From Paralichthys olivaceus (Eukaryota; Chordata; Actinopteri; Pleuronectiformes; Paralichthyidae): 64,000 bases of DNA. The position numbers and the translations under genes are program-made. Position 1 is the first letter of the stretch. The number at the start of each line of letters is the position of its first letter. Of this stretch, positions 1,608 to 60,199 are shown one piece after another. The notes beneath the pieces are model-generated. The model did not search any database and was not told the DNA's origin. It saw only the letters and a list, made by a program, of their open reading frames with translations. The stretch is taken from positions 15,271,580 to 15,335,579 of the forward strand of contig NC_091104.1 of the NCBI RefSeq assembly GCF_024713975.1, given 5' to 3'.

Positions 1608-3237
1608 AACAGTGAACTTTCCCTCCACTAGACTTCATGTATGAAAGCACATTCTCTCAACCCAAACAGTCTTCCTTGAATTTTTATCTACTCGCTACTA
1701 CTACTGTATTCAAACAATAAGTTGACGGGCAGTGTGAGGGGGGAGAGGGATGTCTGGGGACCAAGCCGACTTCCTCTTCATTAAAAAAAAAGAAGTCTGG
1801 CGGATGGGGAGGGAGGGGAAGTACGACCTCGGGTAAACAGTCTCCGCTTTTTTTCCCATGACAAACGCAGACACAACACTGGCCGGACCCTTGCAGGTAT
1901 AGCATGATCCCAGACACATCCAGCGGGCCACCTGAGTCCCCGCTTGACCTTGTTCACTCTGCAGAGGAAGCAATTTGGAAACGATCGCCCACAACTGCAT
2001 TCATCCTATGAAGCCTAACAGGTGAGCAGCCGAAACTCACACAAAGACAATGGGTTTATTATCCCCCAGCTGGAGGAGACCATACCATAACCCTGGGACA
2101 ATAACAGCCACCCCAGAATTAAGGCTCAATTTAGCCATCAACAAGTGTGAGGTAGGGGAGGGAAAGGGGGCCGCTCTCCTCTCTTTCTCCAACACTGAGC
2201 ACCTGGTGAAGGCCACAAAGTACTGCTGGAGGGTCCCACACTAAAAAGGGGAGGTCGGTTCTCATGGCAGATAATAGCAGCTAAGGGGAGGCTTAATGTG
2301 TTCCCGGGGTGGACTTACCTGATACCTGAATATAGATCTGATATGCTCGGAACAAAGATTAGACCACACATACAGAAGTCTCAAACGCAGAGACCCAGGT
2401 GCTTCAGAAATGCCCCCTTGTCCCTGATATGTACCTGTTCTTGTACCAAAGTCAGGTGCCGTAGGGTTTGGGGGGAACCTTGGAGAGCTGTAATCCAATC
2501 TGAAGTGGAGACTCTCTAAAATGGGACAACAAAGGAGGACCGACCCCAGGGCAGACCCAGACCTCGCCACAACAACAGCAGGTCTGAGGGCCTATATTTA
2601 ACAGCGGTGGGAATTGTTGGAGCAGCCGCACAGGAACACTTTCAATGCACAGCGAAGGTCGACTGGGACTGGACTTCCTCCACAGTCTCCCAACGTAAGC
2701 CGCTAGCCTCATTTTCAAGCCCCCCCTCCTCCCTCCTCCCTCGACCACCGACGCCCACACACCCCACCCCACCCCCACACCCAACAGCAAAAATAAAGAG
2801 ATAAGCATTGTTTGGCCAAACAATGGGCCACTTTCAAAGTCCCAAAAGCTTCCATTTTCACATCCAAGGCCAGCATTTGAAGTTGAGTATGGCAATAAAC
2901 AACTTTTGCAAGTGGATGGCGAGAGGTTTCTGGGTTGGAAACAATCAGGTGGATGTTCATGGATGGAAAGGTCAACGTTAAGAGCAGGTGCAGGTGGGTG
3001 AGAGAAGCCTGAAGACACAAGCAGCTCTACAGAAATGCTCCATCAGAAGAGTCAACAGTGACTTTAACTTTCCCACCTGTTGACTTTCTTGACTATTTCA
3101 TCAATAAATACTGTAGAACCACGAGGCTCCTCGTGTGATCTCAGTATTTCAAACTGTAAGGTCTCAGGAAATGCAAATAAAAGTTGGGTTTTCAGATAGG
3201 GATTGGCCTGAAAGGAAGAAAAAAATATTTCACCAAC

Positions 3238-3759
3238 CTTCAGTGAGTTCTGGTCAGCCAGTGCCAGCGCTTGCCGCCTCAGCTCAGACACTTTCTTCTC
3301 ACACTGCGGGCAGAAGCCTCCCTTCTCCTCCGACTCGCTGATGGAAACCGACCCGGCGCCCTCGGGGGGAGGCCGGCTGCTGCACCGCGCGTCCTCCGCA
3401 GAGTGAAGCCTTTTCCTGGGGGTGACTGGGGACTCTCCACTCGGACATCCCTCCACCTTACAGCATGAACGGGTGAAAAGAAAGTTTGGTCATTAACAAC
3501 TACTACTCGGGTTGAAAGAACAGGGCCGCGTGTTGCTTCCTGGGTAGAAATTGTTTGTTTGCGTCTTGACAACCTGTCTGAGCACCTGTCCAAGAGCGCA
3601 CCGCACAGATTGTGGTTTTTTAAAGTTTGGAAACCAGCATGAGAAGCAAATCACCCTTCTTTTTTTTTTACACTCAATCACGTGTAAGACACTTACAGAG
3701 AACATGCGGTTGCTGGTGTCGCCTCCATCAGGAGCTGCGTTGCCCCCAAACGAGCTCAT
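3238..3759 (-). CDS. kif26a: Kinesin family member 26A, N-terminal exons (partial)
   Basis: Two coding exons are visible: 3759-3697 (21 codons, starting MSSFGGNAAPDGG) and 3456-3238 (73 codons). Both junctions are phase 0 (donor TCT|gtaagt, acceptor taag|GTG, donor AAG|gttggt), giving 94 residues. An in-frame TGA lies 15 nt before the ATG, which supports the start. The diagnostic block is FCPQCEKKVSELRRQALALA (residues ~68-87), like the CxxC...L+RQAL segment near the N-terminus of the KIF26 family. KIF26A is an atypical, ATPase-deficient kinesin that binds microtubules and, in mammals, dampens GRB2-linked GDNF-RET signalling during enteric neuron development (established knowledge). The motor domain lies outside the window. 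KIF26B shares this motif; the neighbouring mir203 and aspg, syntenic with human KIF26A, favour KIF26A. Confidence 0.8.
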
Positions 3760-7260: not shown

Positions 7261-8850
7261 ATGTAGGTAACCAGAGTTAAGTGCTCTTGGATTAAAGGGA
7301 TATTCCTGTGATTTACACTTGGAGGACTCCCAACAGAAAATAACTTTTTGTCCTCGGGCTTTTAAAAACACAAGCCTGTTTGTTAGTGCATTTCTGCAAA
7401 TGTTCAGTTTCCAAACCCAAAGAGGAATATCCCTCGATGACACCACATCATCATTGTAATGTCCTTCACGTTTTTTTAAAGAATCTGTCACCAAAGCCAT
7501 AGAAAAGTGTTGTCACAGTCTGACCTGTGGCTGCTGCTAATGAGGAGTGAAATCGATGGAGTGGCCCTTCAGCTGAACAAAGAGAGAAGCTGCAGGCGGA
7601 TTATACTCAGGGTGGATTCTCACTTTATTCATTTCACACTGTTGGTTTGGTTTAATCCGCTGAAGCCAAAACATTCTATTAGAAGTTAGACTCAAGAGAT
7701 TGTGTAATTCATCCAATCAGACGGGTGTTTTGCAAACTTTAAAGTTGCACGTCCTTGAGCCAGAAAGACACGTTTTTTTATTCTTCAGCGGGTCAGAGAC
7801 GATCATTTAAAAATAAGACAATGATGCTGTGACGCCTGAGCAGAGGGGGGTAAATAATAAATATTCTAGGCATGAATAAATTACTTTTGATCCCACAAAC
7901 ACCTCACACACCACGCACGTCACCACCACCCCCTCCCTGTCTCACTCATACACACAAGGACAGACACACACACACTTTTTTAAGATAGGGTGGAGGCAGA
8001 GGGGGTTGTCTTGTCAGTGTAGACCAATAATTACAATCCATAGTAAAGATGATTTACCACGTCCGTCACCCAGCACTTCCCACTGGAGAAGGCCTGGGTT
8101 GGGTTGGGTTGGGTCTCCCCCCCCACCCCTCCAGCCGCTGATGAAATTCGGAGGACGTGGATCCCCCTGGGACGAGCAAGTGCTGCTACATCTGCTGCCC
8201 TTGTGCACGTACAGGGAAATCGCTCAGGGCATCTCATTAATGCCTCTCCTGTGTCTTATCCTCGTGCGTGTGAGACCTCTGCAGCTTCTCCTCGTGCACG
8301 GACCAGGCTTTGTGAGAAACGTTTAGCAAATATTGATAGTTCTCTGTGCACGGAGGGAGATCAAAAGGAGAAAAGGAGAAGGGGGCTGTCTAAAAGAAGG
8401 AGAGAGGGGGGAGTAATCGGTGCACGGTGCTTCCATGAATGATTTACGCAGTATTAAGTAGCCTGTGCTCCTTGGAAAAATAGGGCATTTGGATTTACTT
8501 GTAGAGGCTTTGGGTCAAGTTTTCCCACCAAACTGAATGTAAAGTTTTAATGCAGGTCTTTAAAGTTTAACTGAGTCCACATTTAGACTTTGAAGTGGCT
8601 CAGTAGAGAACAAGAGACAATATTTGTCATAAATCAAGTTAAAAGCACAGATATTTTCCCCAAGTTTCACTATTTATCCTCATTGACTAAAGAACAGTCA
8701 GTGCTCTCCTCTGGTTTGAAGCACAGGATGTAAAATGGCAGCAGGCGCAATGATTTTCCAGAGATTTAAGTTTCAGTACTTTGGACAGCAACCGTCCCCA
8801 CAGACTTAAAATCCACCAGCCCACACAAACTCAACAGAGACAAATGGTTT

Positions 8851-8856
8851 TTTATT
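8851..8856 (-). terminator. Poly(A) signal AATAAA for pri-miR-203
   Basis: A canonical AATAAA on the minus strand about 290 nt after the hairpin. It would end a ~640-nt primary transcript. The assignment is by position. Confidence 0.5.
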
Positions 8857-9145
8857 GACTTGTTTTAATCAGTACCTCTGAACAGTAACAACAGTAAAAC
8901 AGAGAGAAAAAACAGCAGCGTTAGTGCATCAGCAGGGCTGTTAAAAATTTTGTGTGCATGCCAGCAGAATGAAATTACTGAAGCCTGATGATTTTTTACA
9001 ACCCCAACACAGTGGCTGGGATGTAGCAGTGCAACACAAGGGGGCACAATGAGAGAGGAAGACAGAGAGAACACAACTCACAGTTTGACATGAAATGATC
9101 AGAATCCGGCCTTCTCAGATGTTTTCCGACAGCAGCATTGGTCTG

Positions 9146-9219
9146 GCTGGTCAAGTGGTCCTAAACATTTCACAATTTTCTCTAAGAACTGTTGAACTGT
9201 TGAGAACCACTTAATCAGC
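9146..9219 (-). ncRNA. mir203: miR-203 precursor hairpin
   Basis: The minus strand carries both arms of miR-203. The 3p arm at 9173-9152 starts gtgaaatgtttagg and ends accacttg, with the seed TGAAATG. The 5p arm at 9211-9187 starts agtggttctcaacag. The arms pair along nearly their whole length around a short loop (about 9186-9174), and the stem is extended by gctg...cagc at the base. The mature 3p sequence is, as far as I recall, the same as vertebrate miR-203a-3p apart from possible 3'-end variation. This is one of the firmest calls in the window. Confidence 0.96.
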
Positions 9220-9492
9220 GAGACTACACAACATCCTCTGGGTAAAAAGTCCGTCTTCCACACTACTGCTGAAAAAACAGAAGCTGGAATTAGACTCTGA
9301 GATCATCTGGTGGTTACAACACAATAAACAAATCAACACAACAGGTTTCGCCGACACAACGCAACTTACTTGCAAGAGAATAAGTCCACAGGAAAACAAA
9401 CTTCGGCTCTTTGTCCTGAGTGCTCAACTGGAGAAGGAGAGTCTTCCTTGGTGCCATCTCAGCCCAGACTGAGTGACTGCAGAGTTCCAGCT

Positions 9493-9501
9493 CTTTATAT
9501 A
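9493..9501 (-). promoter_or_regulatory. TATA box of the mir203 gene
   Basis: The minus strand reads TATATAAAG, a near-perfect TATA box, about 275 nt upstream of the hairpin. An initiator would be expected near 9465-9472. It suggests a sharply regulated promoter, fitting a tissue-specific microRNA. Confidence 0.65.
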
Positions 9502-9990
9502 GTGTTTTGGGGCTAGGTTCATACAAGCCTCTCATTCAGTCAGGAATGAGACCCATGCTGGTCTAACCGGACGAGCTGGGTTCCACCAGCTCCACAAGAG
9601 CACGAAGGGACAGCCGCCCTCAAGACAAGAGACTTCAAATACCAGGCTGAAAAAGTCACATGGACGCGAGGAATTTTATGTCATCTCTGATTTCTGGTTT
9701 AAACTCTTCATTAATCTCAGTGTCAGATTTGTAGGAGCTAAAACTGATGAGTGTAAAACCAGCTCCAGTTTGTGTCTGATGTGTTTCTGCTGAAGGCCCA
9801 ATGAAGCAATCCAATTATTATTCTGAACCCATTTCTGTGGAGAACACAAAAGACCTACAGAAGCGGCCTTCCACCATTGGGCGGACGTGCACTTATTCAT
9901 ATAGAAAATCACAAAGTCAGAAACTGCTCAGAAATCTTTAGCCAGGATGTGAGTTTCATACAACAGGAGACGGTGATTTCACACAAGAGA

Positions 9991-9996
9991 TTTATT
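9991..9996 (-). terminator. Probable aspg poly(A) signal AATAAA
   Basis: Minus-strand AATAAA followed by a GT-containing stretch (tcttgtgtgaaatc). It lies about 1.1 kb past the aspg stop codon, and I saw no clearer signal nearer to the stop. The segment 9997-11095 would then be the 3' UTR. Confidence 0.5.
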
Positions 9997-11095
9997 TTCC
10001 ATTGGAGAAACACACAACTGCTTTACACATGCATTTTTTAAACGCACAAAATTGGGACAATAACAGCACCTTTCAAGTAATTCATAAGTATTTGCAACTT
10101 AAAGTCACATGTAATTTTCTTACATCAAAGCGTGAAAACAAAATAACATTGATTGGTTTAGATTAAATTATGTCAAATCAGAGAGCAGCACTGTTAAACA
10201 ACACTTACTTGTACAAAAAAACAAGTCATGTTTGTGGTCACACACACAAATAGAGGAGAAAATACAAGATAGAAAACAGAAACTGTCGTGGTTTGACGTT
10301 GGTGTCGATTAAATTTCTTCTTTTACATTTCAAAAGAGAGATGTGACTCTTCCAGCTAAACGATCGGCACGAGAAACAGGCTGGATGAGTCTGGAAGGTG
10401 ACAGCAGGTTTTTGTTATTCCTGTTTGAGCAGACGGAAGTGAGAATCTCAGCTTCGATACTCGAGAAAACACTTTAGACCCGAGTCAAGTGATACAGTTG
10501 GTTCATATTCCAGAAAACATATTTTCTATAAAGATATTTCCATCATCTTACTATAAAAATAAGCATAAAAATAAGATCTGTGAAGGTACCCTGTGCTTCT
10601 TAAATGTCATTTATACATTGCTGTAGAACAGTACGACAATACTCAATTAAGTAATGTGCCCTTTTTAACTTTGTTTGCCAAAAAATTAATTTCATCGTCA
10701 TCCTTCGCTGTTCATGGGAAGTTTCAGCGGTCTCCATGATAGAACAGCTCAGGTGAAGCTCTGAATTCCCTGACAGGTCGTAACAATAACTGAGTCTGTT
10801 GTTCATGGACGTAAACAAATAAAAAAGTTAAAACATTCAGAATGATAATACATTTCCTACGTACAGTATGTACGTACACACACTTATGGTTGCTCTTCCT
10901 GGACAATGGTTAACTGGCTTTCGTGTGAGCAGTGATTGGCTTTCAATGGCAAAAAGATCAATTCAAAAATAGACATTCAAAAGTGAGTGCAACTGTGACA
11001 TTCAGCAGGAGGGTGGACAGCGTGTGCAGGACGGCTCGGGGAAGGAAGTGGTAGCAAACGCAGGACGGCTTCCTGTCGGTTGAGGCAGCGTCCCC

Positions 11096-14000: not shown

Positions 14001-17000
14001 TTTGACATTCTGGTAGCAACTCAAAACTCCAGTTGGGTTACTTTGTCTTATTTCGTTCAATACTTTTATGAAGGCCATAGTAAAGGGTTCACTGCAGGAA
14101 GTCTACCGACAGGTGTTAGTGTTAAGTGCATCCCTCTGCCATCGCAAGCGAAACAAGTCCACACTTGCAGTTAAGCCAACCGTTAAAATAGGACAACAGC
14201 CATTTGGCACAACACATACAACGTTTTCACCCTGTGGCTCCACGTAGTGTCATAGCAGAAACATTAAACATGGCTCTTAACGCATAGTCAATGAATGACA
14301 CAAATTTAAAATGAGCTTTGGTAAAAATAAACACAGTCTATATTGTGAGGTGACAATTAGCCTAATTAGTTTGTTGCCTGGCCTCTAAACTCCATTACGA
14401 GTTGCATCCCCTTGTTTCTCTCTCGCTCTCTCTCTCTCTCTGACAGCTGCTGCTCCCCTTCCTGCACATTTCCCACTTTCCAGCTCTTTTAATGAAGTCT
14501 CCTCTATAGGGGCCATTAACAACATGTTTGCAGGAAAACTCCGATGACTATGAGGAATAACAATGGTTGCTAATGGCAAAAAAAGGGGGATTTTAAATGT
14601 TGTGTTTGCAGCTTACTTGACATAATTACCTTAAGAGACAGATAAAAACCATCATCAGCTCTTACTGTTTCAAACACAGGGCAGGTTTACCTGAAGCGTA
14701 CAGCATTGCATAGGGGTGTATCCCCGTAGCGATCTTTAGCGTAGACTGTAGCTCCATGACTCAGAAGGTACTCCACCACATTTAGGTGGCCCTCACAGGC
14801 TGCGATGTGTAGGGGTGTACGTCCGTCATAGTCTCCGAGACACAAGTTGGTGCCCTGTGAGAAAGAAAAAGAAAAAAACACCACTTTATTTCATCTGGTT
14901 GTTAAAGAGCAGGTCTGGTGATGGTTCACATTTTGTTTATGATCAACAAACAATGATTTTATCCTATAAATAAGAACTAATAAGCTTTTGCTTCCATTAT
15001 CATTCTTAAACCATTTGACCCAAACTACTGCACTGGGTTTCATGTTCCTTTATTATTATTACATGTTCCTTTATAAGTATTAGAATGAAACCATCCCACA
15101 TACTGTCCTGCTGTAAATACAGACTGGTGTACCCTATCTGCAGTTTGAACAAAACCCTGCCGTGCAGAGCTGTTTAAAAGCAGCACTAGAATTTAAACTT
15201 AAAATGAAACTATGAAACCAACAATCTACCGAATGAGAAGCCTTTGGGTTAAATTCATCACAAATTGTAGGTTTGAAAGTGGCACATTTCGACAACAGAT
15301 TTCAGGATATCAAAGGAAGTATCATTAAATCAGTCACCACAAACTGTCTAAGCAGCGACTGCATACCAGTCAAGCCACATACAGGACATACATGTACATG
15401 TGACTGCTCGGATGACTCAGGGCCTGCCTTACCAGTCGGGCCTCATGTTTTGTTTCCCTGTGCACCTGTGTGTTTGCTCCGTCCTTCAAATACGGAGAGA
15501 GTGGCGCTGGAAATGCATCAGTGTAAATGTTGACATGAGGTTGAGACTGAAAAGCCAAGCATGCTTCAAGATAAGCTGCTCCACTGGTATAAACAATTAG
15601 CACTAAGCTGTGTTCAGACTGTCACAGCAAACACTGTGTTGAGCTCAGAAGGCAGATTAACCAGTTTTTGATGAGAGTAGGTTTAGGCTGAGGATATTTT
15701 TCTGTAAAACACTTTCCATTGAAATAAATCAAACTTATTTTAAGGTGTTTGTATGAGAGGTTTGTTAATACCAGTGTAGTTAAACTGGACATGCGTATGA
15801 AATGGACTGTAATGTTGTACCATTTCTTTAAGGGCTTCTAAAGCTTCTATGTCTCCAATCTTAGCGGCAGCACAAGCCAGTGGAGGAGTCAGAGCGTCAC
15901 GAATGGCTTCCAGCTCCTGGAGACATAACAAAATATCATCATTAAAGTGTTGAACAAGTTTTTAAATCCTTTTTTTTTTTTTTCAACATATGCATGAATC
16001 TAATAACGAAATTTCAAAGGAAATGTCTTCAATGCAAGTTAAGCTATAATGAAAAGAACTGCTCCGTTAGGACTCATTAGCTGTTGGGCAGTGGCGTCCT
16101 CACCTCCTTGCAGCTGACGCTCAGAGACTTGGCGACGGCCTGGATAAAGCGGCTGTCGCTGAGACACAGCTTGGCTCCCACTAAGTCGACGCTCATTTCA
16201 CCTCGCAGGTTCTGACCCATCAGCTGAGACAGAGTCACAAACATAAGCACACTTTTACTTCATTTTTTCTGATTCTCCAAAACCTGTATTTGGTTACGTA
16301 TGAGGACACAGACCTTTTTCTTGGCTTCTAGATCAATGTCCGTCTTGGCCAACACATAGGACAACTTTGACAGGGCAGCCTCTGGAGTCATATCACCACC
16401 AGCTATCAGCCCTGCTTCCATCAACACCTGAGAAATCATGAGAATGTGTAATCTGTTAAATTCTTTCTTTCTAAATGGTTTTGAGTCGCTTAACAGATCA
16501 GATTCTCTTATTTTTATTTGGAAAATGAATCACAAAAAACACAAAGGTTGTGTTTTTTGACCAAAAGGTGAACATGAACTACCATTCCAGTGGCGTATGA
16601 TGCGGACACGGTGCCCCTCAGACACTGAGTGCAGTTAATGATGATGACACCAGAGGCAATGGCCTTCTTCAGGTCCATTATCAGGTCAGGACGGTTATCG
16701 GGAGCGTTTCCGCTGCCATAGGTCTCCAGGACCACGCCCTTCATGGGCGGTTGCAGGAAAGCTCTCACCTGGAAACGGACACCACCACAGTTTCATATTA
16801 TAAACACCCACAATTTATGACTAGCTCAACTGGCCGCTCAACTGTGTAGAATCAAATTGAGGAATTAGTATTCCATGTTATTTTTCCTGCAGACCCTTTC
16901 AATCCAACGCATGCGACCATCCACTCCACTAAAAAGCCCATCTGGCACCATCTACGCAACCAATATCTCCATCACTGGTTGGCTGGCAGAGAGAGGCCCT

Positions 17001-20000
17001 ATACCACATCATTAGCCATGGCTTATGACTAGAATGGCAGATGACTGAAATTGCAGTAAGGAGAGCAATTAATCTGAAGGTGTTAGCAAGCATAAAGTCA
17101 CTTGGCAAGACCACGGCAGTTACCATAAAACGTGAGGAGAAGGTGACATTATCAGTGCCGGGTACAGTCTGTATTTTTTGATGTGATAAGCAGTTTGACA
17201 AGAAATGTTTGACGCAGATTACCAATGAAGCGCTCACAGAGCAGTGGCGGACGGGGAACAGGAGAGTCTGGTGCCTTATCAAAACAGTGCCTTACGAAGG
17301 CAGTTAAAAGCTGTAAGGAAGTCTTGATAGCCGAGCTGGGCAGCGGCAGCAGATTGAGACAGTAAAGTCGCCCTCCCAGCAGCCGCTGCAGGGGGAGGTG
17401 CAGCTAAATGTTACAGTATCTGTGCCAATCCTCCCTCTTTACAGGGTGATTGGTCACGGCCCATAACTCCTTCTCATCTTTCTCTGGGCTGAGCTTTGAT
17501 GGCAGTTTACATGACTGGCAAAGTAACAGAAGATGGGTAATAGCACAATTAAATTAAACTTAACTATATTTTATTGCAGTTTGGAGCAGTCAGTTGCCTT
17601 TGAAGAACATTTACTTAATTACGTTTTAATACTCAGGAGGGAAATTATTTCATTACAACACGCATGGATAAAAATATATGCATGACGCTGTTAAAGTCTT
17701 TAATGTATCCCTTTCATCATTCGACTCAATTTAATCTTGTGCTGACTTGAAACTGTATTTACACATAAAAAAATGGACACATTACTCGCAGTAGATGATT
17801 TGAAACTTCATGCAAATATCAAGGCAATAAAAAGCATGTGAACCCATTGGAACAAACTGATTTTCTGCATTACTTGTTCATGAAATGTGATCCGATCTTT
17901 ATCCGAGTCACATGTAAAAGACAAACACAATGTGCTTAAGCAAACATGCGAACAGCTCTAATCTTGTATTTTTTAACGGAACCATTTACACATCAACAGT
18001 GCTGGTGGAAAAAAGGAGATGGTAAACCTGTGGATTTCATTACTGGTCAAAACCTCCTTTTATATCAAAACAGGAGCTTCTAGTAGCTGCTGTCAGATAT
18101 GCAAGAGGTTCAGGAGGAATTCTCATTCTTCCCACAGAACGTTTTCAGCTCAGCCATATTCTTTGGAATCATGTCATTACCTCAACCAAGGAAAATGTTT
18201 TCATTTGCTTTTGTTTGTCTACTTGTTATTTAGCACGATAACACAGCTGAACTGATTTCCATTACGTTTTGTGGAGAGGTGAGGAATTTTCTGACGAAGA
18301 ACCCATTCTGTCTTAAAAAGGACTCAGGATTTTTTTGTAAACTTTCTTTTTTTAAACATTCTTTAATAATGGTGTGATAAGGCATTAACCTAAGCGGAGG
18401 TATGTGCTCTACGAGTGCCCTTCCAGTTTTGTAGTTATTGTTACTTCAGTGTTTAGTGACATTGTCCTGGTGCATCACCCAGCTTCCACTGAGCCTCAGC
18501 TGATGAACATCCACACTGTTCTGTTGGGTGATGCAAGGACCAAGCAGCTCTAAACATTATATGTGACAGACAGAACTAGAATGGCACTAAGTAGAGCACA
18601 TATCACACATATAACAGTTCTCTTTTTGAGACCACATTTGAATTCTCTACATTTTTCTTTGGACCTGCACTACATAGCACAAACTCATGAATATCCATCC
18701 CAAGAATGTGAGTTTTTTCAAGATCCATTAACTATTTTCTGAGAAATCAGTGACAATGTTGAAAAACACCTCACAATGTTAAAGAGAAAACAAGTCCTGA
18801 CTTACAGTGGCAGAAGTGATTCCTGGGAAGAGCCTGAGCAGGCCAACGTTACGGTTCAGCTCAGTGCTGACTTGAAACTTTACTTTGGTGCTTGGCCTCC
18901 AAACCGTATCCCAGTTGACTGTAGGAAAGATGGAGAAGACGAATAAGATAAAGTTTATCTGATTCCTAAAGACAGGCCCACTCTGATCCCTGGCTTACTT
19001 TTAATATCCACTTCAACAATGGCCAGTGGAGCAAGGTTAGGAGAGGAGAATGCGTTGAAACTCCCAGTGTCCACCTTGGTCACGCGATTCCCTCGGTAGA
19101 GTTTGTTATAGAAATACAGACACACCTGAACAGGGAGAAAAAAGATATTTAATGAGTCTATAAAGACAAAAATACCTTTAGACACAACATGGAAACCTGT
19201 GAACATGGTTTCATCAGCACTCAAAGTACATCGATTCAAATATGTCAGTTTGTTCTTAGTTTTCTTCTTTAATGCAGTAAAATCCAATAAAATACAAGAG
19301 ACACAAGTTTTACTGCACTTTGGTGTTACACAGATAAACACACAGTAGATAACACTGTTCTTCCTGTTCTGTTTGTTGTTCAGTATTGCGAAACACTGTT
19401 GTAAGATACAATTCTCATCAGAAAAGTTTTTGTAGACCATGTATCTTCTTAACATGTAAACAAATTATATATATATATATAGGTTTATAATATCAAAGGA
19501 TTAGTTCTTTCATTATTTCATTTATAGTTTTTTCATAATTCATTCATCAACACCATACATGATAAAAAAGGCAGAATTAATGGAAAGCTTTTAAAATTAG
19601 TTACTACAAGTGAATCATCTCTATTTCCTCACCTCAGGAATGACAAACTGTCCAGCGATCAGCAGCGCCCCCAGCAGGTTGCCCCTGCCATCGTTCCTCA
19701 TCTCATAGATAGGCACCTAAAGACAGAACATGCCTTATCTTAAGAAGACAGTACAGCCTTAAAATGCTACGGTAAAAGGTGTTTTTTGTGTTATTGTCCA
19801 GCAGCTCTCACCTGTGAGCCAGTGAGAACGATTGGTTTGCCCAGATGTTCACACATGAAGGACAGGGCAGAGGCTGTGTAAGCCATAGTGTCTGTGCCAT
19901 GAAGGATCACAAAGCCATCGTACATTTCGTAGTTTTTCTGGAGACAGACGAGACACAAAAAAACATCTATTTAAAAAAGCGCCACCATTAGTTAATTTTA

Positions 20001-24900: not shown

Positions 24901-26275
24901 TCACCTGCAGGACTGACTATTGTTATTCTCTACTTTGTGGTCTCCCTAAGAAGAATATAATTAATCTCCAGCTGCTCCTTTTTGTTTGTTTGTTTTTACT
25001 GCATTTATTCTGAAAAGCAGTTCTATTGTTAGTAAGAAAAGGGCTATCAATAAAGTCTTATCTATATGTAGATACCTCAATGTTGATGGAGTGGTGGGTG
25101 AAGTGTGCACATTTGAAGTGGTCATCATTTACTTCAATTGTATTGGATTTGGCTGCAATACTGCTGAAACTGCAAAAGTGTTTTGTGGACTCAAACACTT
25201 CACCCTTCATAGTAGTGTTGGCATCAACTACTGATGAACAGCCTTGAAAAAGACCTGTTCCTGCTTGTACCTGCAGCTGGAAGGACATCTGAATGTTACC
25301 GTACCTAACCACATGCTCCAGATGTTGCCCAATACCTCGTGTAAACATCTAGTTATCCATTGAGAGGATAGCGTTTCTCTGAACTGCATTGTAACGGGAA
25401 CTGTTTGTCCTTACCATTGTCTGCGAGGGGGTACTTTAAGGTTGTTGAGGTGGTGGTGGGTGTAAGCCCCCACAATAATCATACCGTCACACAGAAAGAA
25501 AAATATTGACTATTATGAAATATACTGTATGCATGTATGTACACAGGTATGAACATGTAAATATTGTGTATTTTTCATATTCGTATTCTTTATATATTAA
25601 GGATCTTCTATATATATATATATATACACTTGTTGACTGTGTTAAGTGCCCTATTCTGGAACCGATAAAGTACATCTATATATTTCTATTACTTCTAAGG
25701 TGCATCAAGCCATTATTATTCGGTAAGAAATAATAATCTAAGAGTTATCCGGAGTATTTGACCTCACCCCTCCCGCTGAAATAAAAGTCCTTTAACGTGT
25801 GGTCTCTGAGGAGCCGGGGGAGGTGGAGTCATGGAGACAGTTAGCTCATGTGTGCGCTCCAACCTGGTGTCTCTTAGCATGCTAACTGCTGCACCCTTCG
25901 GCTTGTGTGGCTAAACTGTTTGCATTGTGGGACTAATTCTGGATGCGCTCACGTGTTGTTGACACGCACGCTCCCTCCTTATGTCACAGCTAACACGCGA
26001 TGACGCGAGCTCAGTGAGGCTCAGTTACCGTTATCGTGTATCGTCATCCCGATGGTTCCCCCGGTGTTGATGACCAGGACCCTCGCCTCGGTGGTGGCTG
26101 GAGTCGTTGGCCCAATGGTCTCCAGCGAGCTCTTACTCGACAACCTTCTCCTCCGGCATGGCTGCAGCTGAGCGCCGCGAGTGGGAGAAATGTCACTGAA
26201 CTCCCTCAGGTCCAGTGTAGGCTGCGATAAAGCCCGGGCCAGGGATGTCATGTTGTTGAGGCTGGAGTCCGCCAT
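11096..26275 (-). CDS. aspg: 60 kDa-type L-asparaginase with ankyrin repeats
   Basis: Seventeen coding exons join in frame to 654 codons: 26275-26029, 23834-23708, 20215-20104, 19937-19812, 19716-19633, 19125-18999, 18918-18806, 16768-16583, 16427-16314, 16223-16104, 15916-15821, 14854-14691, 13358-13272, 12769-12670, 12585-12520, 12356-12306 and 11140-11096. The enzyme hydrolyses L-asparagine to aspartate and ammonia in the cytosol. The expected catalytic set is present: TGGTIG with Thr74, HGTDT with Thr177 and Asp178, and Lys249 in NRVTKVD (matching T19, T116, D117, K188 of human ASPG). Residues ~450-630 form ankyrin-type repeats ([37 protein letters not shown]). The tail is acidic ([10 protein letters not shown]). 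Oddity: about 55-60 extra N-terminal residues, with [11 protein letters not shown], precede the domain compared with the human protein. No frameshift or stop was found. Confidence 0.95.
11141..12305 (-). other. aspg intron 16, no gene seen
   Basis: The last aspg intron. It is AT-rich, with no repeat family that I recognise and no exon-like frame. A stretch near 12.10-12.25 kb contains a small palindromic 'gcatgc' patch of no clear meaning. Confidence 0.6.
13359..14690 (-). other. aspg intron 12
   Basis: Intron between the two ankyrin-coding exons. It holds short CT microsatellites near 13.92 and 14.42 kb. No hidden gene is apparent. Confidence 0.6.
14855..15820 (-). other. aspg intron 11, no gene seen
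   Basis: Intron separating exon 11 (ending LKEM) from the first clear ankyrin exon. The short open frames on both strands have no family resemblance. Confidence 0.6.
16769..18805 (-). other. aspg intron 7
   Basis: Two-kilobase intron in the asparaginase domain. It contains a 117-codon open frame at 16929-17282 (minus) without recognisable motifs, a patch near 18.39-18.45 kb with 'gcggaggtatgtgctct' typical of a teleost dispersed repeat, and an imperfect inverted repeat at 18464-18541. Confidence 0.5.
18464..18541. repeat. Imperfect inverted repeat in aspg intron 7
   Basis: Arms 'gtcctggtgcatcaccca' and 'tgggtgatgcaaggac' are complementary over about 16 bp with a 2-nt bulge, around a ~43-nt loop. 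It may be the terminal remnant of a small DNA element. No target-site duplication was seen. Confidence 0.55.
20216..23707 (-). other. aspg intron 2
   Basis: The largest aspg intron, about 3.5 kb. It carries a (TG)n microsatellite at 21.91-21.97 kb. Open frames at 21.66-21.90, 22.2-22.55 and 22.65-22.95 kb look random in composition and have no splice context. Nothing else was recognised. Confidence 0.6.
21914..21965. repeat. (TG)n microsatellite
   Basis: About 25 TG units in aspg intron 2. Confidence 0.97.
24400..24980 (+). mobile_element. Decayed LINE (L2/CR1-clade) reverse transcriptase fragment
   Basis: The plus strand translates, across frame breaks, to reverse-transcriptase-like pieces in the right order: a 'cagcctttgacagagtagaccac' start resembling AFDx[12 protein letters not shown] near 24.56 kb; a remnant of the FHSYADDTQ region near 24.64 kb; and [19 protein letters not shown] near 24.91-24.97 kb, matching the conserved DYCNSLLxGLP block of L2-like elements. 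Several stops and indels show it is dead. It sits in aspg intron 1, antisense to the gene. Clade assignment is by recall of motifs only. Confidence 0.75.
25085..25235 (+). repeat. Dispersed teleost repeat, copy 2
   Basis: Shares 'atcatttacttcaattgtattgga' -like core and 'aaacacttcaccc' with the block at 150-300, same orientation, more diverged. It follows the LINE fragment within aspg intron 1. Confidence 0.5.
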
Positions 26276-26450
26276 GTTTCGCTCCCTTCCTTCACAGGTG
26301 CTCGATCAAAGTCTCCGGTTCTCAAGAGCTGTCAGCAGCCCGACCCACGGTGCACTTTCTCCGGCTGTGAGTGCAGAGCAGCGGCTGCCATGGTCATTAT
26401 GTAGAGCAGTAGACGGAGGGCGGGACCAAAGCCTATAACCTTGTGAATCC
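26276..26450 (-). promoter_or_regulatory. Probable aspg 5' UTR and promoter region
   Basis: CpG-bearing sequence immediately upstream of the aspg ATG; the GC-rich zone continues into coding exon 1. A CRE-like 'tgacgtca' lies slightly further upstream, at 26492-26499. No TATA box is evident, and the transcription start is not determinable by eye. Confidence 0.4.
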
Positions 26451-31110: not shown

Positions 31111-31668
<558 letters not shown>

Positions 31669-46800: not shown

Positions 46801-49387
46801 ATGACATCAGTTCAAAATCATACCTACTGTCATTTATGAAATAAGAAAAGAAGCTGTTTACAATACAAGAATGCTAACTCCTCTCAGATGGTGTTGAAGA
46901 ACTGCACCACAGCTCTACTTAAAGCATACAGCACCTCACTGGAAGACACCAGGTACTGAACCTTCTGCCTGTGAAGTAAAATAACTAATTTGGAACTGTC
47001 CTCACAGTGAAAGTCTTCACTGTGTATTTCTGTTTGTGTCCACCTCAGGTTTGACTTGATCCTAGAACAGATCAAGACAGTGATTAATGACGACACAACC
47101 TACCTGAAGGGGAGTCTCAACATGCGCACTCAGAAGTGTTACGCCGTGCGCCCCAATGTCAACGAGTTCCTCGACATTGCCCGCAGAGCTTACACTGAGA
47201 TAGTGGACGACATTGCCGGTAATAGTTTTGGTGCTCAAGCAGATATGTTTGTCTTTTCAGTGATGGAAAAATATTAAATATCATAGTGTTCCACAGGGCT
47301 TGTGAACCAAATGGGGGAGAAATACGGCTTTCCAATGCGAACCAGCTTCAGCACAGCTCGAGGATTTTTCATCCAGATGAAGCTTGAAGGTGTGGTCCTA
47401 CCTGGAGGGAATCTGCCTCCAGAGTTTATCAAGGTGAGGTCCAGTAGAGACACACAAAGATCACAGACCAACACAATAACAAAGAAAACTGATCAGCGGC
47501 TTTGAATGAATGAAGCTAAATTTCCCAGAAAGTGATCATAGTCTTTGAATCATAGAGTGAAGAGTGTTTCTACACTTGTCGCCTCAGGTAACCAAACAGA
47601 AGAACAACTACTGCTTCACAACTGCAGACCTGATGAAGATGAACGACCGCTGCGATGAGGCCCTGAGGGAGATCTTTCACATCTCTTATGTGTGAGGAGA
47701 TCATGATCCTGTGACTCACAAACATGCACAGTGATGTACCTTACACATTACACTGTGTGTGCAATAACACAATTTCTTAGCTGCGTAATCGCAGTATTAC
47801 TTTGAATAATTGATTAGTTGGGTTAGTCTGTTAAATTATTTGTGCGGTATTATTTTCTCGCCATAGATGGATGTGATTATGCAAAGGTATTCAAATGTGG
47901 AGCCTAATAATATTCAAAGTATATTTGAGTGTTTTTCTGTTGCCAGAGATGTGACGACCATTTCACAGAAATGACAGATTATAAATATAATCCACCAAAG
48001 TAATTTCTTGGTTGACAAAGACCAAAAAAATCAATTAGTCAGCTCATTCATTAAATATTGGTAAAATCTCTTTCTATTAAGTTTTCATCTTGAGAAGCCG
48101 GTCTTGATCAGTTCTTAAACTTCTTTTTGTCCACCAGAGGGTGCTCTATGTTTGCCATAATCTCTGTGTTGTTTTTTTTTCTCCTTCCCTCACCTCCCTG
48201 CATACAGGGTGATATGTCAACTGCTGAGCACCATCCACGAGCACATCCACTGCCTGTACAAGCTCTCTGATGCTGTCTCCATGCTGGACATGCTGCTGTC
48301 ACTGGCTAACGCATGCACCATCTCAGACTATGGTAAAAACCAAGATTTGCTTCTGGCCATCACCAAGTCAGTCAAACCGTGAAATTAACATTAAGGTGTG
48401 ATCTGTTGACTGGGGGAGTACTGTGTGCACATCAAGCCGTACCCAGCCAACATCACACATGACAGCCAGAAAGGTCTCTGCAGAGCTGGCCGCTCCTCTG
48501 GCTCCTTTTTTTTGTGTGCTGGTTGTGGACAGCACCAGCCCGATCAGCCACGTGGGTGGGGCGCTGGCCCTCAGCTGTCTGAAAGCATCTCTCCATAGAC
48601 ACGTGCTGACTGCCTGCCCCCTTCCATCGCTGCCAGCTTGTACTCAGATCACCCTTGTTACATAATTGTGCAATAGTGCGCTGACAACTCTTCCTAGCAG
48701 ATGAGGGAGCAGGATTTAAACACTGCACACTCATCTCTCTGTTGTTATTATACTGTGATACACCTCTTAGTTAAGAATTGAATTATATATTTGAAAGCAG
48801 ATACTGTAATTTGATATGTATTGTAACCAGCAAAGTAATTAGTGTCACAGTATATATCTATATAGGTAAGCTTTTTTAATCACAAAAAAAAACCAACTAA
48901 TAAATCAAGGTATATTTTGATTGATTTTCGTGTTTTGTTTTTTTCTGTTGTGTCTGCCAGTGCGTCCAGAGTTCACAGACACTCTGGCCATAAAGCAGGG
49001 TCGTCACCCCATACTGGAGCGAATGGCTGGACAGCAGCCTGTATCGAACAATAGCTACATCTCCGAGGGCAGCAACTTTGTCATCATCACTGGACCTAAC
49101 ATGAGCGGCAAGTCCACCTACCTCAAGCAAGTGGCGCTGTGTCAGATCATGGCTCAGATAGGTCAGCAGCAAACCTTTCAGCGTCACAAAGAAAACAAAT
49201 GTTTACTTAGCTTTTTGAGTAAATCTCCTTGCATCATTATTCCAGGCTCTTTTGTGCCGGCTGACTACGCCTCTTTTCGTGTTGCTGATCAGATTTTTAC
49301 CAGAATTGGTGTCGACGATGATTTTGAAACTAACTCTTCCACCTTCATGTTGGAAATGAAGGAAGTATGTGTCTTTCTTTCATTACA

Positions 49388-49439
<52 letters not shown>

Positions 49440-50512
49440 AAATCTTGAATTATCATTGAATGTACTATTCCTCCCCAAAGATCTCTTACATCATCCACAA
49501 TGTAAGTGACAGGTCCCTGATCATCATAGATGAGTTGGGACGTGGTACCAGTGCAGAGGAGGGCATTGGGATCTGTCACTCAGTGTGTGAGTTCCTCCTC
49601 AGTCTCAAGGTAAAGTTTCTGCCATTGTTGTCATGTAGCCACTCCTCTCTCCAGGACAAAAAAAAAACAAATTAGACGCCTGCTGTTTAAATCAATCATT
49701 GAACGTGTTATTATCTGATGTGGAACACCTCTTAGGTCAACAGTAAAGCAGAAATACAGGACTAGTGCACGTTGCCCTGTGTTTTATTCTTCAAGGCGTG
49801 TGCTATTTGCAGGCGTTCACCCTTTTTGCCACACACTTTCTTGAGCTGTGTCAACTGGAGTCTCTTTACCCAAACGTGGAGAACCAGCACATGGAGGTTC
49901 AGCACACGCGCAGTGTTGACAGTAGCGATGAGAGTGTCGTGTACACGTACCTGCTGAGTCGGGGATGCTCCGAGGAAAGACACTATGGTACAGAGTTGTT
50001 GAAATCAAAGTGCAAATCTGTTGAAATTGGTAATTAAAAAGTAAAAGAGCTTGTCTTTGCCTTTCTAGGTCTGAGAGCAGCAGAAATGACTGCCCTCCCT
50101 TCAGATTTAATCCAAGAGGCAAAGATAATTGCCTCGAATGTCAGCCAGCAGCTCTTGGTATGTTTCCATACATCACACTTTACCTCTTTTACCACTTTAA
50201 TTTAAGAGAAACTAGTCTTTGACAGATAGACCTCTTGTTTTATTTGTTCCATAAATAATCCTGGTTAATATCAGAGAAGTGCTGGACCCTAGGCGTGTGT
50301 CATTAATCTTTCAGGCCAAACATCATAGTGATCCAGAAACACAGAGGCAGAGAGCTGTGTACCACCTGGCCACCCGCCTCCTGCAGGCTGCCAGGAACTC
50401 CAGACTGGACCCAGACAGCCTGCGCATGTATCTGAAAGGCCTGAGGAAGCAGTATGAGGCAGAGCTGCAGGCCGCAGGGCAGCCAGAGTCCATGGACACG
50501 GAGGAGGAGTGA
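43897..50512 (+). CDS. msh4: MutS protein homolog 4 (meiotic)
   Basis: Twenty coding exons join in frame to 925 codons (human 936): 43897-44116, 44871-45035, 45123-45286, 45405-45515, 45686-45801, 45884-46057, 46167-46339, 46438-46505, 46706-46780, 46888-46952, 47049-47218, 47297-47433, 47588-47691, 48208-48332, 48961-49161, 49246-49364, 49481-49609, 49813-49987, 50069-50157 and 50315-50512. MSH4 pairs with MSH5 as a clamp on Holliday junctions and stabilises crossover intermediates in meiosis; it does not act in mismatch repair (established). Seen: low-complexity N-terminus (~1-130, no mismatch-binding domain I), [17 protein letters not shown], Walker [10 protein letters not shown] (667-675), ETNSSTF, Walker [12 protein letters not shown] (742-752), FATHF and the helix-turn-helix tail. 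All splice phases agree and no lesion was found, so it is probably functional. Confidence 0.97.
44575..44710 (+). repeat. Dispersed teleost repeat in msh4 intron 1
   Basis: Shows 'tccattcaaccacttgtcc', 'gggtcacatgggggctggag', 'atcccagctgacc', 'ttcaccctggaca' and 'cagggctgacatatagagac', in the order of a very common fish dispersed repeat. It is the 3' part only. Confidence 0.7.
49388..49437. repeat. Compound (CT)n(TA)n microsatellite
   Basis: A CT run followed by about 18 TA units in msh4 intron 16, starting about 24 nt after the exon 16 donor. The whole intron is only 116 bp, so the repeat fills much of it. Confidence 0.95.
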
Positions 50513-52022: not shown

Positions 52023-52059
52023 GGTGTGAGAAATTTAACAGGAGAATTGTTCTGTCACC

Positions 52060-54228
52060 ATGTATCGAAACAAGATAGATATCCACATGGGAGACCTGAT
52101 GTCCTCCTCCACTACACATTACGAGGTGCAGAAATTCCTGGGCTGTGGTACCTATGGAGTGGTCATCAAATGCAGGGATGTGACCAACAATGAAATGGTG
52201 GCTTTAAAAATACCGAGAAGGATAGAAAAAAGTCAGTTTATGAGGAAAGAGGAGGCCACCCTTAAAACCATGAAGGAGCTAAACTCAGACTGGTTCAACA
52301 TCGTCAGATTGAATGACTCATTCACCTACAAGGGACATTACTGTCTTGTGTTTGAGTACCTGGAAATAGATCTGCAGGAATTCATGCACTCCAGCCCAGG
52401 TCAGCACCTTCAGCTGAAGCAGATTCGCCCTATTCTGCAGCAGGTTTGTTTTTTCAACAGTTCTTATACTGACTGATTTGGTGAAGGGTGAACTAAATTG
52501 CGTCTGTTACAGTTTTTTATTGAAATAATGATAATAATAAAGTTAGGTTAAATAATGTCCTTAAAGACTAGAGGTGGTGACTTGTGGTGGATACATGGAC
52601 TCCTTCAGTTCTTCCAATCATCGTATGCACAATCACTAGTGCTAGGTCTATCACCAACAATTCTATTAATCTGTTCCTATAGTTGAGTGTACGACTTTGG
52701 AATATCTGACTAATACTCAGTTGTTTCTGTTTTTGCTGCCATCAATGAATACATGTTTTCATAGTTTTTGCTGATGAAAGGAACTCTGTAGTTCATGATT
52801 GTTATCATGTTATTCATGATTTCAGCTGGCTACATCCTTGGACTTTCTGAAAAGGGCAGGGATCATCCATTCAGATTTGAAGCCAGAAAACATTATGTTG
52901 GTGGATCCTGTCAGGCAGCCACTGAAAGTTAAAATCATTGACTTTGGCTTAGCCTGCAACAATCCTGAGGAATATATAGGACAGATCTTCCAGACCTTGC
53001 GTTACAGGTAAGTAACCAACAGCACATCTGTATACATGGGACAGCTGTGTTTGCTGTAATAAATGAATCAAGACCTGTAGTAATATATTTCTGTTTCTTC
53101 TTCTAAGATCTCCTGAGATTCTGCAGAGAGCTCCTTTCAACGAGGCCATCGACATATGGTCTCTAGGCTGCATTGTTGCTGAGCTGTCTATGGGCAGACC
53201 GCTGTTCCCTGCCTGGAATGAGACTGATTTGGTCAGTATCACACGTACTGCACTGAAAACACAACAAACAGGCCCATTTTCTCTGTGATATCATTTGTAT
53301 TTATAAATTGTTACACACTTGACTAGAATAGAGAGAGTTTCCATTCGAAGTTCACTCATTTCTACTATTTTATTAATGAGACAAACTACAGACACTTCAT
53401 CCATATGTCTCAGTAATATAAGTGCACCTGATGTACCTGATCAACACTGATGAGTTTGTTAACTTGAAGTTAACTCACTCTCACAACATTGTGTTTTCTC
53501 TACAGATGAGGCACATTATGCATACAAAGCCAGAGCATGAAAGAGACGTCACTCCATACTGGTTCTGGCCAAAATACTGGATGGAAAGCAGATTTATGGT
53601 AAGAAATTAGTTTACCACCACTTTGCTGTGCTTGTAGCTCACTAATTATAGTGACTTTCCTACAGTCTGTGTTTCTTTCCCCTTTTGTCATCCAATATCT
53701 CAATTAAACAATTCTTCATTTCAGGGAATAGTTTCAATTCTCATTTGTGATCAACAGCCTGGATGAATTTATAACAGCACAACATGACTTTTGAAAAAAA
53801 TAGAAATTGATTTCATAATCCAAACACAAGGACATGTAACAAACAATGTTTTTTTTCTCTTCTTGTTAAAGGCGACTCATAATCCATTCTGGGGAGAAGA
53901 CGTCCACGCTGAATTCTGGGACCTGGAGTGCTTTATCGATCTACTGACACAGATGCTGAAGATAAATCAGTTTGACAGAATTACCCCAGGACAAATTCTC
54001 CAGCATCCTTTCATCACGATGAGCCACCTTAGGGGTCACTTCAAAAACAGCTTCTAGTAAGTGTGTGCTTAGATGGTCTGTATAAATCTGTACTTATAGA
54101 TATAGGAACAAAATGTATGAGATATATGGAGATTAAGGTGTTTGGCTCAGCAGTTTCATTTGTCTTCCAGTTTGAAATCGTGTAAGGATCTAATGGACTT
54201 CAGGATCAGAGCTCTGACGACGATATGA
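52060..54228 (+). CDS. Short HIPK-family-like protein kinase
   Basis: Exons 52060-52443, 52826-53007, 53108-53231, 53506-53598 and 53872-54056, then probably 54171-54228, give 341 codons. If the last intron is kept, a TAG at 54055-54057 ends the protein at 322. The fold is a kinase domain alone: glycine loop GCGTYGVV (28-35), VALK with Lys50, [10 protein letters not shown] (143-152, catalytic Asp145), DFG (167-169), SPE (190-192), DIWSLGC. VDPVRQP after the catalytic loop is a HIPK signature, so it is placed in the homeodomain-interacting protein kinase group, of which fishes carry many short HIPK-like copies. Differences from HIPK1-3: Ser for Ala in HADLKPEN, loss of the STYLQSRYY activation-loop tyrosines (here [10 protein letters not shown]), and a shortened C-lobe between ETDL and the DLLTQML helix. 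It lacks the long regulatory tail. Substrates are unknown. All key catalytic residues are kept. Confidence 0.82.
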
Positions 54229-58600: not shown

Positions 58601-60198
58601 TTTAGGGAAGTCATGATGACCAGGTTAAACCCTTTGAAAAACAAATGCACACAGAAAATAATGAATGATGAACACAGACAAATCTAAGAATACACAAACA
58701 ACACATTCTTTAAATAGCTGTTAAAGCTCAATTAAATAGAGTACCGTACAGTCACATTTCACTTTTGGGACTCCCCAGTGTGAAATATTGCAAATTGCTG
58801 ACATTTTCACTGGTTCTGAGCAACACTGCACAATCAGAAATCACTTCTTCTTCCCAGCCCTAAAACCAGTGCTTGCCAGTGACCATACAGTGCGAGTGCT
58901 GTATTGAAGAGAACAAGTTGTGATTTTAAGCAAAGGAAAATTGTAGATTTATCTGCATGATGCTACTTTTAATGATTTGGTATTGGATGAGTATATACAT
59001 TTGCAAACTCACCAATGCCTAACAAGGCATTTTCTGCAGTATCAGAGGGATTTCTGATCAGTATCTACAAATAAGTCCAGTTCATGTTAAGCCATTTTGT
59101 AGGATGTTTTTTTACTAGAAAATGGCAAATCATCAGAAACTGCTAATTCTTACAGTTGGTTGGTTTTATAGTGACTTTGTGTGAGCTATTAGACACATTG
59201 TGTGTTATATTATTTTATCTTTATCTGCACTGATACAATCCTAGTTCATTCTTACTTCGACTGTTTATGCCTGGAGGAGACAACACATCGTTTCTAAGAA
59301 TATCTTTGGCAGATGCTACACTGATGAAATCTCAGGACCTCTTGACTCTGTAAACTTTGCTTACGCTGGAAGAGGAACCTCTTCTCCCTTGGCTTGAAGC
59401 AGGCAGGGGCCCAAACTGCAGCTGCATCAGACCTCAGCGGGTGACACTTGCATGTGGGTGTATTTTTGCCTCTCGCAAATTCATCCTGATATGAGTTTGG
59501 AACACCACCATGTTGTCCTTGTGGGGGCTCAGGAGGAGAAGTGACTAAATGAGGCTGTGAGCTGTGTTCTTTTTAGCCTAGTTGCCTCTGATATGTTTGA
59601 CCTATTTAATACCCTTTAAGCCAATATGAGTGAAGTGGCTGGATTTTGTTATGATTTTTCAACTGTCTTACATGCCATGTTTCAAGATTCTGTGAACCTA
59701 TATAAAGGTAAAAAGGGGATTACGCTCTGTAGCAGGAGGAAGTGTTTTTTAAATCGATCATATCACTAAAAGAAGAAGGCGTGTCAGTGCGAGACCTCTC
59801 ACTTACACCCTGTGAACACGAGTGATGTACAGACACCTCCACCCCATCTCATACGTTGCTGAATAGCCAGGGCTAGTAACAGCAGTCTACCTGCAAATAA
59901 TATTCTCTCAGGAGCCTAGACAGGTTCAGCAGGATTTCGTTTGGATAGAATGCGAGCAGCAAGCTGAAATCACAGATTCATGTACAGTACATCAAAACGT
60001 TGGCTCTTATGTTCTTGTGGTTGCTGCATTTGAGAAGCCTTTGCTTGCTGAAATCTGTTGCCATAATGTCAAACACACGCTATATGTAAAATATTGGCAG
60101 ATGTATGTAATGGAATCAGGCAGATCTGCTTTATAACTGTTGGTGTTGACTGTGTGCTAAGTGGGTTCTCATTTCCCTGTCTGTCTTCTTTTATCTAG
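55606..60198 (+). other. ktn1 intron 1
   Basis: About 4.6 kb between the putative non-coding exon and the first coding exon. The left 250 bp is still GC-rich. No other gene, strong repeat or exon-like frame was recognised. Splice acceptor: ttttatctag before 60199. Confidence 0.5.
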
Positions 60199-60199
60199 A

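Follow-up and report, generated by a model that had tools for sequence, protein, structure and literature searches.

mir-203 is a well-known skin microRNA gene. In mouse, miR-203 is intergenic, with Aspg (printed 'Asp') 3.3 kb upstream of it and Kif26a 15.3 kb downstream, and its primary transcript bears a poly(A) signal and a tail (PMC4536367). The human gene is also classed as intergenic (PMC3123655). In HeLa cells, 5′ RACE located two starts of human pri-miR-203, of which the one near the hairpin is in line with earlier work; the same study predicts as promoter a 1-kb, GC-rich stretch that was aligned for human, mouse, rat, dog and cow (PMC4319761). More generally, a review of the features of 175 human miRNA promoters gives TATA box and initiator frequencies that are the same as those of mRNA promoters (PMC3224893), and spliced pri-miRNAs with exonic hairpins constitute an established small class (PMC3779153). 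Among zebrafish miRNAs, about 86% are classed as intergenic, and both miR-203a and miR-203b are listed (PMC2427041); a review reports that in this species miR-203 represses lef1 and blocks regeneration of the fin (PMC4159003). The available text of PMC5931597 and PMC4159003 yielded nothing on the miR-203 promoter.

Here, we analysed a 64,000-nt stretch of Paralichthys olivaceus DNA (the window), for which a preliminary description had claimed an unusual, self-contained mir203 gene with a TATA box, a splice donor and acceptor, both miR-203 arms and an AATAAA signal. Every one of these elements was recovered at the claimed place and on the claimed strand; the questions of how they would work together and how unusual the gene is are taken up below.

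The mir-203 hairpin

The minus strand carries the fish orthologue of mir-203, with the following features.

9145-9224, minus strand: mir-203 precursor hairpin (Rfam RF00696, 90.8 bits, cut-off 65)
9187-9211, minus strand: miR-203-5p arm region, the arm starting at 9211
9152-9173, minus strand: miR-203-3p, GTGAAATGTTTAGGACCACTTG, 22 nt
9132-9135, minus strand: CNNC motif (CTGC), 17 nt past the 3p end

The Rfam match spans the full family length (minus strand, 9224-9145), and this score, together with the location of both arms, bears out the claim of a mir203 gene. The fold of 9110-9260 beats 199 of 200 shuffles (z -2.78). A CNNC is expected around the distance found here as a Drosha-aiding motif; no basal UG is present at position -14 relative to the 5p cut. 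The seed of GTGAAATGTTTAGGACCACTTG is UGAAAU, as in zebrafish miR-203a and miR-203b (PMC2427041). A repeat scan of 8300-10500, of a kind that misses the mismatched mir-203 stem, returned four short two-copy direct families and no inverted pairs.

The plus strand at 9141-9220 also exceeds the Rfam mir-203 cut-off (65.7 versus 65). In human, mir-203b is an antisense hairpin to mir-203, and the plus-strand score would be compatible with transcription of both strands in the fish as well, with an antisense mir-203 being produced. However, the score is barely above the cut-off, as expected from a near-symmetric stem, and the sole plus-strand TATAWA in 8000-10500, at 9496, lies beyond the hairpin and overlaps the minus-strand TATA box, so that we regard an antisense product as distinctly improbable.

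Genomic setting and copy number

The preliminary description had invoked the ASPG-KIF26A neighbourhood of the human gene; candidate exons of the two genes flank the hairpin.

16514-16792, minus strand, upstream of mir-203: ASPG exon frame (Asparaginase_C 58.4 bits, cut-off 34.6)
16260-16529, minus strand: ASPG exon frame (Asparaginase_C 1.8e-6, 28.3 bits, under cut-off)
26021-26305, minus strand: probable ASPG first coding exon (Asparaginase E 0.037, under cut-off)
3064-3489, minus strand, downstream of mir-203: open frame, putative KIF26A 5′ exon

The ASPG side of this setting stands. The frame at 16514-16792 matches L-asparaginase 4r8k (5.2e-21), presumably the guinea pig enzyme, and '60 kDa lysophospholipase' 9s7y (8e-21), in addition to scoring above the Asparaginase_C cut-off. 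NCBIfam asparaginase models match the two middle frames below the whole-protein cut-offs, as expected of single exons, and the frame at 26021-26305, which we take to be the first coding exon of ASPG, has no PDB match at E 0.1. Thus, judging from these matches, ASPG lies upstream of mir-203 on the same strand, and that side of the ancestral gene order is in place.

The KIF26A side is probable. The frame at 3064-3489, taken here as a 5′ KIF26A exon, has no Pfam match, and a frame outside the window, in the neighbouring DNA, has a sub-threshold match to the KIF26A/B tri-helical family (E 0.0042; 17.7 bits, cut-off 27). The two frames align with each other only at E 3.8 and so lend each other no mutual support. 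Of four candidate frames for the kinesin motor, three have no Pfam match, the fourth being the KIF26A/B tri-helical one, and one frame is also without a PDB match. KIF26A likely lies downstream on the same strand, with matches that stay under the cut-off.

Elsewhere in the window, the plus strand carries a single-frame ADP-ribosylation-factor gene at 31111-31668 (Pfam Arf, 6.2e-80), which we take to be probably ARF6, and exons with Pfam matches to a MutS-type gene (48921-49448), a protein kinase (52039-52476) and a kinectin/ribosome-receptor-like protein (60161-60976).

The genome searched for further copies comprises 588 Mb in 25 contigs, with the window on contig 12. In the Rfam family search, only the two strands of the window locus scored above the cut-off among the 63 of 133,618 first-look candidates that were scored, a proportion at which a diverged mir-203 copy could be missed; a further match, on contig 24, reached 24.2 bits (E 1.18). 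The same search gave matches in 8 of 14 control genomes and exceeded the cut-off in none. The miR-203 pattern with one mismatch allowed occurs at 5 genome sites (1 exact, the window locus, and 4 with one mismatch), compared to 6 for the reversed control. The 4 one-mismatch sites and the 24.2-bit match were considered as a second mir-203 and rejected, none of the 5 loci having an Rfam match at the gathering score. The 672-nt stretch of the preliminary description matches its own place alone in the genome, and the exact 20-base miR-203 pattern occurs 0 times in a genome-contig collection and 0 times in a viral-contig collection. With a single mir-203 found, versus two in zebrafish, this genome may have lost a copy, or the search may have overlooked it.

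The predicted transcription unit

The signals surrounding the hairpin are arranged, in the order of transcription, as follows (a slash marks an exon-intron boundary).

9493-9501, minus strand: TATA box TATATAAAG (sequence match)
9466-9472, minus strand: initiator match TCAGTCT, putative start A at 9470
9370-9470, minus strand: putative exon 1, 101 nt, deduced from the start and the donor
9427, minus strand: first exon base of a strong acceptor (11.19 bits), usable by an upstream first exon
9269-9369, minus strand: putative intron 1, 101 nt, CAA/GTAAGT ... TTTTTTCAG/CAG
9289-9293, minus strand: CTAAT branch-like site in intron 1
8835-9268, minus strand: putative exon 2 with the hairpin, from the acceptor to a 3′ end estimated from the poly(A) signal
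8877-9081, minus strand: possible second intron, weak (donor ACT/GTGAGT 6.51 bits, acceptor TTCAG/AGG 6.70 bits)
8851-8856, minus strand: AATAAA poly(A) signal (sequence match, putative use)
8810-8835, minus strand: GT-rich downstream element (by inspection)

Each signal by itself is common. The sequence TATATAAAG occurs 3 times in the window (2 minus, 1 plus), and on both strands together there are 118 AATAAA and 27 GTAAGT, as well as 85 donors and 235 acceptors of at least 8 bits. The combination is another matter at the putative promoter, where the initiator A lies 31 nt downstream from the first T of TATATAAAG. Of the 49 TATAWAWR on the minus strand of the window, this is the only one followed by an initiator match at 28-33 nt. 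Over both strands, the window has 8 cases of TATAWAWR with an initiator at a distance of 29-33 nt, 1 of them on the minus strand and 7 on the plus strand, compared to a shuffle mean of 1.0; three of the plus-strand cases overlap within one TA repeat, at 19470-19474. The ordered set of TATA box, initiator, donor, acceptor and AATAAA in a span of 700 nt is found once across the two strands of the window and in none of 60 dinucleotide-shuffled windows, a descriptive figure given that the layout and thresholds were set after the site had been seen and that the splice-site matrices had been entered by hand, so that the ordered set is non-trivial, its degree of unlikelihood not being given by the test.

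Downstream of the putative start, the donor CAA/GTAAGT (first intron base 9369) scores 8.74 bits and the acceptor TTTTTTCAG/CAG (first exon base 9268) scores 10.14 bits with hand-entered splice-site matrices; the two strands of the window hold 59 and 64 sites, respectively, with at least these scores. Pfam searches of the open frames 9211-9423 and 9314-9535, around exon 1 and intron 1, returned nothing at E 1. With this intron, mir-203 would fall in the putative second exon, in line with the earlier claim that the hairpin is exonic rather than intronic. The pair at 9081 (first intron base) and 8877 (first exon base), with a CTAAC at 8924, may leave the 3′ splicing of the putative transcript in more than one form. 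It also invites a different reading, in which intron 1 is unused, or the 9081/8877 pair is used, and the hairpin is borne by an unspliced or otherwise spliced transcript; given that this pair scores below the sites of intron 1, we consider such a reading possible but doubtful. At the 3′ end, an ATTAAA, starting at 8869, is present in addition to the AATAAA, and TTGTGT, TGTGTG and GTGTGG are found at 8828-8826 (all minus strand).

The region ahead of the putative start is inconspicuous in composition. The GC content of 9900-9500 is 45.9% (46-47% for the putative promoter region), and the observed/expected CpG ratio is 0.43, the same as in the whole window. The preliminary description had put forward the TATA box as the conserved core promoter, a proposal to be set against the GC-rich promoter predicted in human (PMC4319761). 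Among 11 factor motifs sought by exact consensus in 9440-10000, CCAAT matches 3 times and ETS once, the single ETS match being downstream of the putative start; p63, AP-1, GRHL, IRF, KLF, BREu, E-box, GATA and AP-2 have no match in this interval.

The claim that the gene is self-contained calls for more caution, because the strong acceptor at 9427 may leave room for an upstream first exon. Indeed, the RNA could be a longer transcript initiated upstream, either between ASPG and 9.5 kb or by read-through from ASPG, and spliced into 9427 or 9268, with the TATA box minor or unused. The 11.19-bit score of this acceptor and the position of ASPG, upstream on the same strand, are compatible with such a transcript, as are the at least two 5′ RACE starts of human miR-203 (PMC4319761). 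However, the TATA box and initiator are at the textbook distance and form the sole such pair on the minus strand, and it is the human start nearer the hairpin that matched the earlier report (PMC4319761). We consider an upstream start unlikely. Distal control may also be involved, by analogy with human mir-203, which has been listed among putative long-range regulatory targets (PMC3123655).

Discussion

The arrangement of signals suggests that mir-203 is, quite probably, a transcription unit of its own, read by RNA polymerase II with a TATA-directed start near 9470, optional splicing and polyadenylation after the AATAAA. We favour this model because of the 90.8-bit hairpin, the sole minus-strand TATA/initiator pair, the fitting intron, the CNNC at +17 and the AATAAA accompanied by GT-rich DNA, and also because of ASPG being upstream on the same strand and of the intergenic mouse and human genes (PMC4536367, PMC3123655). 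Counted against it are the acceptor at 9427, the GC content of 46-47% versus a GC-rich human promoter, the absence of 9 of the 11 factor motifs and the lack of UG at -14. Under the independent-gene model, TFIID would bind TATATAAAG and transcription would start near 9470, yielding a transcript of about 0.63 kb from which the 101-nt intron would be optionally removed. Drosha would then excise the hairpin from exon 2, with Dicer yielding miR-203-3p, and the remainder would be cleaved and polyadenylated after the AATAAA at 8856. Like the use of these signals, expression in epithelium is what we would predict.

The fish locus resembles mouse Mir203 in its intergenic place downstream of Aspg and, probably, upstream of Kif26a; the mouse gene has its own polyadenylated transcript, whereas that of the fish is deduced (PMC4536367). 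It also would share independent intergenic transcription with human MIR203A but differs in the promoter, that of the human gene having about 70% GC, compared to 46-47% GC and a TATA box in the fish (PMC4319761); 'tata' occurs 0 times in the main text of that paper. In BIC/miR-155, pri-miR-146a and pri-miR-22, the hairpin is located in an exon of a spliced transcript, a layout that in the fish is predicted from sequence (PMC3779153). We found no layout like that of the fish gene in the literature on miR-203 promoters and fish mir-203, as represented mostly by titles and the opening parts of abstracts.

The comparison lends no support to the view of this compact gene as unusual: the mouse gene is reported to be polyadenylated and intergenic (PMC4536367), the human one has a start near the hairpin (PMC4319761) and TATA boxes are described as equally frequent in human miRNA and mRNA promoters (PMC3224893). 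Given these precedents and the known exonic spliced pri-miRNAs, the result is a good annotation rather than a surprise, and the mir-203 gene described here, though neatly laid out, is unexceptional among microRNA genes.

A more speculative possibility is that the spliced transcript doubles as an mRNA, such that splicing and export would lead to a small peptide, and Drosha cleavage would destroy the message while giving rise to miR-203. Peptides from pri-miRNAs have been described. In the joined exons (9470-8835, minus strand), the first ATG, which by inspection has a strong Kozak context, begins a frame of 85 codons, which spans the junction left by intron 1 and continues into and through the hairpin; unspliced, the same ATG opens 47 codons. 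A first-ATG frame of at least 85 codons occurs in 33 of 2000 shuffled transcripts, and any ATG frame of that length in 82 of 2000. The evidence from this frame is suggestive at most, and we consider a dual role very improbable.

If the gene model is not true, the locus is one more annotated orthologue. If it is true, this would be a very short mir-203 gene, some 0.7 kb long, and would allow its promoter, its splicing and its processing by Drosha to be tested together in fish skin.
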